Of a DNA stretch of 64,000 bases, positions 6,501 to 18,500 are shown one piece after another (the first letter of the stretch is position 1; each line of letters starts with the position of its first letter). The translations under genes and the position numbers were made by a program. Location: positions 71,321,469-71,385,468 of the forward strand of contig NC_091134.1 of the NCBI RefSeq assembly GCF_041381155.1, given 5' to 3'. The notes below the pieces were generated by a model. That model saw only the letters and a list, made by a program, of their open reading frames with translations, did no database searches and was not told the DNA's origin. Source of the stretch: Argopecten irradians. Its lineage: Eukaryota > Mollusca > Bivalvia > Pectinida > Pectinidae.

Positions 6501-9500
6501 GAAACTGAATACTGGAAGTTTTGGAATGAAAATCTCGCGCCATTTTCGGTGTGCTTTTGGTTTCAAACGAGTGTTTAAGAAGTCAGATTCAGGGAAACGC
6601 TTGATACATGCATTGCTTCAAGCGTATAGTCAACAAGAGTTTAACTGCATTTGACAAATGTATGTAAGATCGATTAGGCCCATGTTTTACAACAGAATGA
6701 TGATAAATAAGATCGCTATTGTATCCTATATTAATATGAAATATATGCGTAATAAACTTGATTGCCAATTATTTCATTGAAAACACAGCAAAATTATTTG
6801 ATAGGAATTTCCCGGGAAATAAACTGTTTGCACAAAATATGTGTCACACTGTGCAATTTTAGAGCAGTTGTTCATAACATCGTTATATCGCTGTCTACAG
6901 ACATTTATTAAACATCCAAGCTATTTAAATAATAAAAATAACTTGTGTATTGATATTTCATCATTTTTTATGGTTATATAACATTTTTTCTTGATAACAA
7001 TCCACAGAAAATCTAAAGCGAAATCGAGTCAGCGCATTTGTTGTCATTGTAAACAGTAGCCCAGAGATGCCTGGCCCTGACACCATACTTAGACATTATG
7101 ACAGAGAGATTGTCTGCCATAGGGGCCAGAGCGCAGTGCTATATCAAAAGCTGGATCTCGCCAACCCCGTTTGGTATCGGCTAGGTTCATCTCTCCCCAA
7201 ATTCAGACTAAACCTCCCAAGAAGCCCCACTTACCTTGGTCTTTTCAACAAATGAATAATTTATCTACCCCAAATATATGCAATCCGTCAAATTTACATA
7301 CTATGCATACTGTATTGAACATAAAATAACGTGCATACCATGATAAAATACATTGCTATAGGCAGATAAATTATTCATTTGTGTTGAAAGACAAAGTTAA
7401 GTGACGTTCCTCGCTGATAACGTTTTGTAAGCAGACTCAATCGAAGATGACCTGGTCCACTTCAGTCGGCCGATTTTTCCGTGAATTAAAGCATTTTTGA
7501 AATTGGGCGATAAATATTTTAAGTTTATCGAGCGGCAAACCATGGATTTATCTGTTTTGACAATTTTAAAGTCCAGTAACTCTTGCAAATATTGACGAAT
7601 TTTAACCATTATCAAACTCATTCGAGATCTCATTGATATAACACAGTATACCAAATTTGGTTGAAAATAAAAACTTAAGTTATTGCACGGAAACCGTTTC
7701 CCAGACGCCGACGCGGCAGACACCGACATAGTGATACGCTAAGTGTCGCCCTTGCGTTGCAGGACAACACAAAAACCCATGAACAATCTATAAGTGTATT
7801 TCTATTACAAGAGGCCCAGAGGGCCTGTATCGCTTACCTGGTTTTGTAATGTCAAAGTCATGTTCTGAATACAGGTTCATTGTTTCTTTTTCTGAAGGAA
7901 TTTGAATATTTAACCTCTTATTTCCCTATTGGGACCCCGCCCCTCACCCCCCTGCCCCCGGGGGGGCAGAGCCAAAACTTATACAAGTTCTTTTCCCCTT
8001 CCCCCAAGGATATTATGTGGCCAATATTTTGTTACAATCCATGCAGATTACTCTAGGACAAGTAGCGATTTATAGGATTTACCTCTATTTCCCCTATTGG
8101 ACCCCGCCCCCACCTGCTCCCATGGGGGTCAGAGCCAAAATTTTTATACAAGTTTCTGTTGCCCCTTCCCCAAAAGATGTTTGTGGGCCAAATTTGGTTA
8201 CAATCCATGTAGAAACTCTAGGACAAGTAGCGATTAAATAGGATTTACCTCTATTTCCCTCCCCCACTGGACCCCACCCCTCCTGCCCCCGGGGGGTCAG
8301 AGCCAAAATTTATACAAGTTCTCTCTTCCCCCCTTCCCCAAAGGATGATTGTGGCTAAATTTGGTTACAATCCATGCAGAACTATAGGACAAGTAGCGAT
8401 TTATAGGATTTTACCTCCATTTCCCCTATTGGGGTGGTCCCCGCCCCTCCTGCCCCCGGGGGTCAGAGCCAAAATTTATACAAGTTCTGTTCCCCTTCCC
8501 CCAAGGATGTTTGTGGCCATATTTGGGTTAGAATCCATGTAGAACCTCAACCACAAGTAGCGAATTTATAGGATTTACCTTATTTCCCCTATTGGGGGGG
8601 CCCCGCCCCTCCTGCCCCCGGGGGTCAGAGCCAAAAATTTATACAAGTTTTCTTCCCCTTCACCCAAGGATGTTTGTGGCCAAATTTGGTCACAAATCCA
8701 TTGCGGAACTCTATGACTAGTAGCGATTTAAATTAAATGTTGACGGACGGACTGACGGACTGACTGCCGGACGCCGCGCCATGACATAAGCTTACCAGCC
8801 CTTTGGGCCAGGTGAGCTAACAAAACATTAATTTACCTTGTACAACATAGAAATCCAAATAGAATTCCAAGAGGCACCAATGAGTGATCCCAAAGGCCAA
8901 CAAAAACCCCAAGAATAGCCACACTCGAGCACCTGTAACAGAGGAGCACACATAGTACACCACAGAGGATTGGCTAATTAGTATATAGTCTACATAGTAT
9001 TGAATAAACACTAAAACCAGGCACCTGTAATTCATATGTCCTAAAAACCAGCCCTCACATGTTTGTCCTATAACTATAACCCTCACCTGTTTGTCCTATA
9101 ACCATAAACCTCACCTGTTTGTCATGTAACCCATAACCCTCACCTGTTTGTTATGTAACCATAACTCTCACACACTGTGTTTTGTTCCAGCTTTAACCAT
9201 AACCCTCACCTGTTTGTTCGAATAACCATAACCCTCACCTGTTTGTCAAGTAACCATAACCCTCACCTGTTTGTCCTATAACCAGTAACCCTCACCTGTT
9301 TGTCCTATAAACCATAACACTCACCTGTTTGTCATGTAACCATAAACCCTCACCTGTTTGTCATGTAACCATAACCCTCACCTGTTTGTCCTGTAACCAT
9401 AACCCTCACCTGTTTTGTCCTCTAACCTCTCACCCATAACCCTCACCTGTTTGTCCTATACACCATAACCCTCAGCCTGTTTGTCATGTAACCATAAACC

Positions 9501-15500: not shown

Positions 15501-18500
15501 CTGTTTGTCCTATAACCATAACCCTCACCTGTTTGTCCTAAAACCAGTACTCACACCTGTTTGTTGCCTCATGCAACCAGTCCTTCATCTGTTTGTCCTA
15601 TAACCAGTCCTCACCTGTTTGTCCTATAACCAGTACTCACCTGTTTGTCCTATAACCAGTCCTCACCTGTTTGTCCTATAACCAGTACTCACCTGTTTGT
15701 CCTATAACCAGTACTCACCTGTTTGTCCTATAACCAGTCCTCACCTGTTTGTCCTATAACCAGTACTCACCTGTTTGTCCTGAATAACCAGTACTCACCT
15801 GTTTGTCCTATAACCAGTCCTCACCTGTTTGTCCTATAACCAGTACTCACCTGTTTGTCCTGAATAACCAGTCCTCACCTGTTTGTCCTATAACACAGTC
15901 CTCACCTGTTTGTCATATAACCAGTACTCACCTGTTTGTCCTATAACCAGTACTCACCTGTTTGTCCCTATAACCAGTACTCACCTGTTTGTCCTATAAC
16001 CAGTACTCACCTGTTTGTCCTGAATAACCAGTCCTCACCTGTTTGTCCTTGACCAGTCCTCACCTGTTTGTCCTATAACCAGTACTCACCTGTTTGTCCT
16101 TTAACCAGTACTCACCTGTTTGTCCTGAATAACCAGTCCTCACCTGTTTGTCCTATAACCAGTACTCACCGGTTTGTCCTGAATAACCAGTACTCACCTA
16201 TTTGTCCTGAATAACCAGTCCTCACCTGTTTGTCCTATACAGCCAGTGGTGTAGGCATCTCCGCGGATCTGTCCATTCGACACGGAATTTATTCTGGAAA
16301 ACAAGAAAAGTTTGATATTCAAAAACTTCAATATTATCAATTGTGTTTGCTGGAAAGTTTTCACAAATATCTTTATCCTTCCATTATGTGTTACATGGCA
16401 GACTGCAAACACAATCAATCAAATAATATTAAATACAATGAAGTTAATCTAAACTGCAGACAATATGTGTAGCACTCTTAATTTTAGTGTATATTTACTG
16501 GTAGACACACATTTAAACAATTTCATGATGAATTTTAATAAAAGTGCGTTCAAAACATTTACAGTGGAAACAAGGTAATAAGGTCTATGACAGACTGTCA
16601 GTGTATCATCAATCTAATTAAAATTAGATCTTCTATGTCGCTCTCTGTAGACAAGGTCGATGGAGAGCGACATACATGTAGAAGATCTAATTTTAATTAG
16701 ATTGGTGTATCATCTGTCTATGGTCAATCATTGAATTCTTACATGAAGAAGGCCAGCGTCGCGATAGCTCCACACGTATGGTAGGCATGGTTAAAGTCAG
16801 CGTTGTCTGGGACCAGGGCTGCAGCATCAATAGCACACCACCAGCCGGAGAAAAACTGAAAATAGACCAAATATTACTGGAACGCAGATATATGTGCCAA
16901 GGCTAAAAAGGGAAGGAATAGTGTAATGTTTCTGGATCGGTGTCCATGTTGGTGACCAGGTACTCCCATAACATGAGAATCGACTGGTCAGCCTTTTTTT
17001 ATCGGACGTTATTTTGCTGACTGTCGACTCTCATTTCTGAAGGGTTATTTAATTTCTTTGATGCAGCTTCCAACGTCAGATGAAGGCGGAAGAAAAAAGT
17101 CCAATAAAATCAATATTTCCTGCACTAACAGTGATAACATTGATGTATACTTACAGTTAGGTATTAATTATCCCATTGATCTAGGAAAACCATAACTTGA
17201 ATCCTCATAAAAATAGCATTTTTAGCGGATTAGATATGATGAATCCTTTCTGTAATATTTTTGACCTAGTTTTAAATATGGCGGCTGGTTACTACAAAAA
17301 ACGGAACATGAATTCAAGCGGGGCAGAATGGAAGTAAAAGGAAAGGCAGATCAAGCGTTTTGGGGACTTTGCAATTCGTGTTTTTCTATTTAACCGGCCA
17401 GATCGCTTTCATCATGAAGTTTTGTCTGGGTCATGAAAGTTTACGTTAGGAGATGTAAATATTTGTTTAAGATGGATTTTACGGCTGATTTTGTCAAAAT
17501 ACTTGTTGATTTATGAAAAAGAGGTAGGTATTTGACATTGATGACGATTTAAATATGATTTAAAACGTTTTTATATTGTCACAATCCAAACTTTGAAAAT
17601 GTTACGTAATGTTCCAAAAGTGTCTGTCATGCTATACCTCTATCATTGTTGGAGTAGTGACCAGGTAGCTACTGTTGTAACGAAAAAATATCACCGTTTG
17701 AAAAGTCAGTCAGAAGGTGACATCTTTTTTTGGCCACTTAAGCAATGCAATGATGTGATTCCCGGGTTTTGAAAGCGCTGATATGTTTCCAGGATCATCA
17801 TAACACCTGTGTTCTGGTTAGGCTGAGTGATACTCTAACGATACATTAGTCTACCTAAAATAGACTTTATAAACAACTGTATGTTCGTTATGTCGCGGTG
17901 TTTAAATTCACCATATATATAATATGTATTATATATGGTGTTTTAACTACATGCGCTGTGTATTGTCTTAATTTACATGTCCCTGTGTCTGTCTGAATTT
18001 ATATTACATGTCCCTGTGTCATGTAATGTCCTGTACATGTAAATCTGTGTGTAAGTTGTTATGATGACGTATGAGAGGCGAGTTGAATGGATTGGTTGAG
18101 TGTGTCACATTGACCCTGCATGACCCTGTCCTTGCACGTGCACGCCCACCCTTGAGGAAGCGTGTCCGCACATTACGTGGAAATAGGCACTGGACTGTAC
18201 ATGTGTGCTTTACGGCCACAGTACTAAAAGGTATGTTTATTTAATGTATAACTAGAAATAAAGTAATTAACTTATTCTTCACTATGCAATATAATTAATA
18301 TACTTTATATAATTAAAACTTATTTAAATAACTTGTCCATAAAGCTTTATATTATATGTATAACAAAGGACCGCACGTGGTCGGTGAGGTTAGGGCAATG
18401 CATAGAGTCAAGTGACTGGAAATTAAATGTTATTTGTAAATATATGTAACTCGGAAATTAAAATACAATTTAATATAATATATTAAATAGATACCTGTTT

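Follow-up and report, generated by a model that had tools for sequence, protein, structure and literature searches.

A minisatellite of repeated exon 3 donors fills intron 3 of TMEM50 in Argopecten irradians: a known kind of repeat at very large size

The TMEM50 locus and the array in intron 3

We analysed a 64,000-nucleotide stretch of the genome of the scallop Argopecten irradians (the window, C1:71321469-71385468 of the 846-Mb assembly, C1 being contig NC_091134.1), which carries the gene TMEM50 on its minus strand. Intron 3 of this gene is occupied almost end to end by a tandem array whose unit joins the last bases of exon 3 to the first bases of the intron, and our subject is how this array arose and what it may do. 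An earlier sequence-only reading had named both the gene and a bivalve source. The gene assignment holds, as exons 2-4 match the Pfam family UPF0220 (PF05255) with an E value of 2.1e-18 and 66.8 bits against a cut-off of 25. The source agrees too: a second array locus, where each of the six TMEM50 exons can be recognised and is open, lies some 37 kb to the left, and the top named homologue of the protein it encodes is a TMEM50B-like protein of the saucer scallop Ylistrum balloti at 95% identity. The features of the gene and array in the window, which we call copy A (the second locus being copy B), are as follows.

21194..21292, minus strand: TMEM50 exon 1, placed by tblastn, with the start of the protein; 3′ limit approximate
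16743..16855, minus strand: exon 2, placed by tblastn, donor read from the sequence
16226..16293, minus strand: exon 3, 68 nt, ending ...TGTATAGGACAAACAG; it encodes a 24-residue peptide and supplies, with its last 14 nt, the exonic part of the unit
8933..16225, minus strand: intron 3, 7,293 nt; the first intronic base is 16225 and exon 4 starts at 8932
9033 (about)..16225, minus strand: boundary-seeded ('mirage') minisatellite, 7,193 nt, 261 segmented units
12230..16225, minus strand: exon-side block of the array, mostly 26-bp GTGAG[G/T]ACTGGTTATAGGACAAACAG units and 28-bp TTATTCAGG variants; inner edge set by eye
9059..12229, minus strand: exon-4-side block of the array, made of 28-bp GTGAGGGTTATGGTTACATGACAAACAG units with their variants; the two copies are collinear here except for a single unit
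8977..8983, minus strand: TACTAAT, a putative branch-point-like motif 51 nt before the end of intron 3
8837..8932, minus strand: exon 4, which is 93 nt (31 codons) in copy B and has three one-base additions here

On the minus strand the exon 3/intron 3 boundary reads ...TATAGGACAAACAG/GTGAGGACTGGT, the slash marking the splice site, and the intron opens with GTGAGGACTGG. Segmentation with eight unit consensi shows that the array covers about 98.6% of intron 3 (7,193 of 7,293 nt), ending in a degenerate unit and leaving the last 100 nt of the intron free of repeats. The exact donor CAG/GTGAG (CAGGTGAG) is present 214 times in intron 3 of copy A, and the exact 26-mer of 12 intronic and 14 exonic nt is found 33 times in copy A and 59 times in copy B. 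Neither CAGGTGAGG nor CAGGTGAGT has an occurrence elsewhere in the window on either strand. The boundary, the array and the junction of 14 + 12 nt to the exon are thus as described in the sequence-only reading. That reading described a 26-bp unit repeated some 250 times; the array is real, but its roughly 260 units belong to two families. On the exon side lies the 26-bp family, whose +6 base is G or T; beyond it lies the 28-bp family, and the first intronic unit is itself a 28-bp variant. No AATAAA or ATTAAA was found within intron 3. The coding strand is G-rich over 7 kb, with a GC skew of about 0.45-0.57, a composition that could favour R-loops.

Probable origin of the array from the exon 3 boundary

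Searches of the genome were made for exact matches only, with no mismatch search and with very common words skipped, and repeat counts from them are lower bounds. All 75 exact genome matches of a 39-mer from the 26-bp family, and all 53 of a 41-mer from the 28-bp family, fall within the two copies of this array, so that by exact search the patterns of both unit types are at no unrelated locus. A scan of viral contigs for the unit returned 0 matches. The array in copy B is also attached to exon 3, and in neither copy did we see it detached from its exon.

The residues encoded by the seed point to the direction of copying. Across 119 homologues the G is kept in 118, the Q in 95, the T in 98 and the final G in 112, while the isoleucine is poorly conserved (16/119). 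Because most seed codons encode residues conserved far beyond molluscs, the most likely direction is from exon to array. The boundary-seeded origin proposed from the sequence is therefore supported by the conserved seed residues, by the confinement of the units to this gene in exact searches, and by the exon-joined array of copy B.

The opposite history, in which a pre-existing satellite was inserted beside exon 3, whose edge later took on the satellite sequence by conversion, is compatible with the wobble positions of the final exonic codons, which would allow either direction. It is nevertheless highly improbable, given the conservation of most seed residues, the absence of the units from any other place by exact search, the array's end at the exon in both copies, and the fact that other arrays of this genome match their own exons (see below).

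Two assembled copies and the turnover of units

The window contains one copy of a head-to-tail duplicated segment.

2506..44059, no strand assigned: the duplicated segment as carried by the window (the window copy); its left-hand partner, C1:71286981-71323964, runs up to window position 2496

The junction between the copies is sharp, at window 2496/2506. The duplicated segment measures 37-41 kb (overall C1:71286981-71365527), and insertion noise flanks the junction on either side. From exon 3 to exon 1 the copies differ by 2.7 mismatches per kb. Short insertions at window 4-9 kb number 32 per kb in the window copy versus 6.4 the other way, and in the 8 kb before window position 0 they number 8.6 per kb in the other copy versus 1.7 the other way; the excess is lower farther from the junction. 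Relative to copy B, the three one-base additions in exon 4 of the window copy, each adjoining the same base, break the reading frame and then restore it. We conclude that copy B is probably the other haplotype, two haplotype contigs having been falsely joined end to end, and that the window copy is poorly polished, its unit-level insertions and deletions not to be over-read.

The sharp head-to-tail junction, the insertion excess flanking it and declining away from it, and the exon 4 additions all raise the question of whether array length, unit noise and the second locus together are products of joining and under-polishing two haplotypes. Such an artefact accounts for the duplication and much of the unit indel noise, but not for the array, which both copies have and whose far halves are collinear; as an explanation of the array we regard it as very unlikely.

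Copy B has 291 units against 261 in copy A, a difference possible for alleles and paralogues alike. When the copies are aligned unit by unit, the first 16 units at the exon match. Blocks of 34, 17, 43 and 30 units are then present in a single copy only, lying between matched blocks of 16 and 9 units and confined to the first 88 units of copy A or 118 of copy B. These differing blocks lie in the exon-side block of the array. Beyond that point the copies are collinear except for one single unit each, and 172 of the last 173 units of copy A are paired. Additionally, units with an intact exonic 14-mer become fewer away from the exon: by quarter, 41/65, 29/65, 11/65 and 7/66 in copy A, and 41/72, 54/73, 27/73 and 11/73 in copy B, where the peak is in the second quarter. 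The 14-mer gradient and the exon-side block differences fit a polar expansion near the exon.

Relation to known boundary repeats

Tandem repeats at exon-intron boundaries have been described before. Among the closest in kind are the amphioxus 'mirages' of Adh3 and the globins BflGb6 and BflGb9, minisatellite-like tandem duplications across an exon-intron boundary that give many AG/GT units (PMC3087553). Their haplotypes vary in unit number, regular splicing was reported, and they are possibly general in cephalochordates (PMC3087553). The scallop unit likewise spans the boundary (14 exonic and 12 intronic nt, the first unit joining exon 3) of a coding exon in a normal gene, a UPF0220 member with six recognisable, open exons in copy B. 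The scale differs: the two haplotypes of BflGb6 carry 6 and 3 units of 150-160 bp and Adh3 units are 10-72 bp (PMC3087553), whereas TMEM50 has about 260 units, mostly of 26-28 bp, filling a 7-kb mollusc intron.

In humans, the variable number tandem repeat (VNTR) of ABCA7 intron 18 has a 25-bp unit starting at the exon 18 donor and about 12 to 427 units, up to 10.7 kb (PMC5954066). The TMEM50 array also begins at an authentic donor that its units repeat. Retention of a single ABCA7 unit shifts the frame and is independent of length; the next exon can be skipped in frame, and its skipping rises with length (PMC5954066). That array lies in a C-rich region and its splicing consequences were measured in people (PMC5954066), whereas the TMEM50 unit includes 14 exonic nt and is known from sequence alone. 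A second human case, the 31-bp VNTR at exon 13-intron 13 of CBS, c.1444_1467+7(16_21), is a tandem repeat at a donor with polymorphic copy number whose name implies 24 exonic and 7 intronic nt; it differs in having 16-21 units (PMC2630376, PMC1395315). A link of this repeat to enzyme activity is indicated by the title of a cited paper and by one row in a review table. Introns can also be gained when exon sequence containing AGGT is duplicated in tandem (PMC4974935); there too splice-site-bearing sequence is duplicated within a gene, but a new intron results, whereas TMEM50 amplifies the boundary of an existing one. In the open-licence PMC literature we found no molluscan report of a boundary minisatellite; an intron minisatellite of abalone is reported, in the part of the paper accessible to us, without a boundary claim (PMC6905558).

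Conservation of the donor core

The sequence-only reading held that the donor core is far better preserved than the spacer. This is so between the two families, whose spacers differ; within families it is not. In the 26-bp family (139 units with ≤6 edits) substitutions amount to 1.0% per column in the core versus 2.0-2.3% in the spacers, a modest difference, and position +6 is T in 37% of units. In the 28-bp family (115 units) the values are 1.4% versus 1.5-1.6%, and the donor is altered by +2T>C in 5/115 units. We also compared the core with all circular 8-column windows of the unit, dropping units with >4 edits (272 of 291 were kept in copy B, for example) and setting segregating columns aside. 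For the 26-bp family the core then ranks 5th of 26 windows in copy A and 7th of 26 in copy B; for the 28-bp family it ranks 18th of 28 in both. The least variable window is CAAACAG/G in three of the four sets and begins one column later in the fourth, overlapping about half of the core. Special preservation of the donor core within families is therefore rejected, as the core is never the most conserved window, and this is as expected for neutral turnover.

Donor choice and predicted splicing consequences

We took the predicted pairing with the 5′ end of U1 as the measure of donor strength. The first donor pairs at -11.6 kcal/mol. Among 323 GT sites in neighbouring sequence the mean is -2.35 and none equals the first donor. 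Within the array, 215 of the 259 later donors are predicted to equal or exceed the first in U1 pairing, in line with the proposal that the gene faces many near-equivalent donors. We considered whether the nearest decoy donors are damaged, and rejected this; donors 2 and 3 of copy A do lack CAG, but donor 2 of copy B is intact and pairs better than donor 1.

The predicted consequences depend on which donor is used. Use of donor 2 adds 28 nt and shifts the frame, as had been anticipated; in copy B the shifted frame runs through exon 4 and, with the exons joined by eye, stops at a TGA where exon 5 begins. Donor 2 is the exception, since the other 259 of the 260 later donors run into a stop while still in the array, at nt 29 of the sequence that is retained. 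Exon 4 is 93 nt in copy B and its skipping would keep the frame. We infer predominant use of donor 1 with low-level 28-nt retention. An effect of array length on exon 4 inclusion is possible, by analogy with the next exon of ABCA7.

The array could instead be a selected regulatory element acting through splicing noise or dosage, in which the U1 sites would compete with donor 1 or hold U1, and array length would set the yield of TMEM50 mRNA. The strong pairing of the later donors, the stop met from the third donor on, the difference in unit number between copies, and a core substitution rate in the 26-bp family about half that of its spacers can all be read this way, and in ABCA7 array length correlates with lower expression and next-exon skipping (PMC5954066). 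Other observations run against it: the core of the 28-bp family is kept no better than its spacer and includes the +2T>C units, retention of ABCA7 units did not rise with length and its authors, in the accessible part of their report, saw no effect on nonsense-mediated decay (PMC5954066), and similar arrays at unrelated genes favour a general mutational process. On balance we think a selected regulatory role unlikely.

Donor-motif arrays at other genes

A first census pattern, a triple AGGTAAG, led to two further arrays on C1. At C1:1266040-1267300 (L039), a 1.4-kb guanylate cyclase intron is mostly an array of a 42-bp unit (29.8 copies) starting at the exon donor, ...ATAGGCTGTCATACAG/GTAAGG; the exon pair around this intron matches guanylate cyclase in Pfam (2.4e-24). 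At C1:2890660-2897553 (L040/L041), an array of a 41-bp unit with 142 AGGTAAGTCT motifs starts at an exon reading GLLLSYMLMKELTKQKGRINWFMFYFYRFWR, which we take to be acyltransferase-like; the 31-residue exon of L040 gave no Pfam match. Several units of this array encode FYFHRYWR where the exon itself encodes FYFYRFWR, as if older exon sequence had been kept in the units.

A sparser pattern, AGGTAAG twice plus AGGCAAG, gave 108 matches, and the 100 of these 108 that were listed form 51 groups by eye. We fetched the 5′ side for the first 40 of the 51 groups, in listing order. Tandem Repeats Finder (TRF) reports a tandem array at 38 of the 40 places (not at L058 and L060); the array runs out of the fetched stretch in six (L042, L057, L059, L065, L069, L080), so that 32 are resolved. 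Together with L058 and L060 this makes 34 places with a resolved 5′ end, and at 30 of them the peptides preceding the first donor were compared with Pfam; those at L046, L048, L052 and L054 were too short. Five of the 30 exceed the curated cut-off, all of them tandem by TRF: a tau repeat (L063), CaMKII_AD (L071), LDL-A (L073), ZZ (L076) and UDPG dehydrogenase (L077). At E <0.01 there are 11 matches, where about 0.3 would be expected by chance; these are the same five together with VPS13 (L047), RUN (L068), an acyltransferase (L072), LRR (L078), RING (L081) and a coiled coil (L074), the last being little informative. PDB sequences identify L061 as RNF216 (3.5e-9) and support VPS13 at L047 (0.0053); PDB searches gave no match for the peptide of L060 and one at E 0.074 for that of L049. 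In total, 12 of the 32 resolved arrays have sequence-family support, 6 of them strong.

Judged by eye on an open frame and an acceptor-like site alone, seven more places resemble exon ends (L043, L049, L052, L054, L064, L066, L079), and L051 and L062 are ambiguous. Seeding of all such arrays at exons is rejected, as 11 of the 32 have no exon evidence (L044, L045, L046, L048, L050, L053, L055, L056, L067, L070, L075). L066 has 2.8 copies in its stretch, the TRF array of L072 begins about 800 nt after the donor chosen by our script, and at L052 and L078 the exon end is one unit 5′ of that donor. At least 40 open codons precede 15 of the 34 first donors versus 23.6% of 3,960 control positions, and at least 50 precede 11 of the 34 versus 14.4%; as a stand-alone exon test open-frame length is weak, and the 34 include the non-tandem L058 and L060. 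Overall, the sampled sequences suggest that a substantial part, not all, of these donor-motif arrays begin at an exon donor.

Abundance was also considered as a signal. The sparser pattern has 108 matches versus 10 with its letters reversed, and the AGGTAAG triple has 19,583 versus 3,246. A permuted control, GATAGAG twice plus GACAGAG, reaches 147, with 111 when reversed, and so we reject a robust excess of donor-motif arrays over other motifs. Random seeding therefore remains the simplest account; by a rough estimate a random AGGTAAG may often be a true donor, so random seeding may suffice. A larger claim would be that boundary-seeded donor arrays form a genome-wide class of dozens to hundreds of loci, with many genes picking one of tens to hundreds of near-identical donors, and that the arrays are favoured or used, for U1 loading along long introns or length-tunable control of splicing, rather than tolerated. 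We think this claim unlikely.

Other repeats of the window

The region around TMEM50 is generally rich in minisatellites. Window 7947-8730, in intron 4, holds an array of a 166-bp unit; because arrays about 82-86% alike recur in the segment of copy B and further left, it is a dispersed repeat, unlike the intron 3 array. Two large minisatellites at 30870-33722 and 60845-61687 have 56-bp and 71-bp units with consensi that lack AGGTRAG. Near-identical direct copies at 17890-18704 and about 20174-20988 flank open frames in TMEM50 intron 1 that presumably resemble a retroelement integrase end, and the whole is likely a long terminal repeat element. About 4.5 kb at 22188-26726 are exclusive to the window copy and may be a mobile element insertion, since they contain an open frame of 699 residues that matches nothing in Pfam.

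Proposed history and meaning

We consider it likely that the array is a 'mirage'-type minisatellite, produced by random tandem duplication across the donor and polar expansion, with mostly first-donor use, low-level unit-retention noise and a largely neutral character. In scallop ancestry a short tandem duplication would have taken in the final 14 nt of exon 3 together with the 12 nt that open intron 3, and the copies would then have been amplified and diversified by ordinary minisatellite turnover, mainly on the exon side, until the intron was full. The array may have been tolerated in either of two ways, exon 3 ending at the first donor or a later donor being used and the transcript lost, and the array-free last 100 nt would preserve the branch-point-like and acceptor sequences.

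Several points weigh against this history. The seed event is itself inferred from this one genome. In copy A, 48 of the 260 donors pair with U1 better than the first, mostly CAGGTGAGTAC at -13.6, and with the better-pairing donor 2 of copy B this means that exclusive use of the first donor is not guaranteed. Weak selection is also conceivable, given the halved substitution rate of the 26-bp core. Still, the most likely state is neutral expansion accompanied by slight splicing noise, and a dedicated function is unnecessary to explain it.

The TMEM50 array belongs to a kind of repeat that is already known, and by itself it is a very large example of it. What is new is its size, its occurrence in a mollusc and the number of loci, and the most useful extension is that such arrays recur at other genes of the same genome. 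For a share of intronic minisatellites these loci offer a clear origin, and they also carry a warning that such places may be badly assembled and annotated. TMEM50 offers a natural experiment on 5′ splice-site choice, in which one exon faces some 260 donors, mostly equal in predicted U1 pairing, at varied distances; owing to the frame and stop consequences, each choice could be read from RNA. Should the census hold, many loci with different units and array lengths would be available in one genome, and how the first donor wins would be testable outside disease genes.

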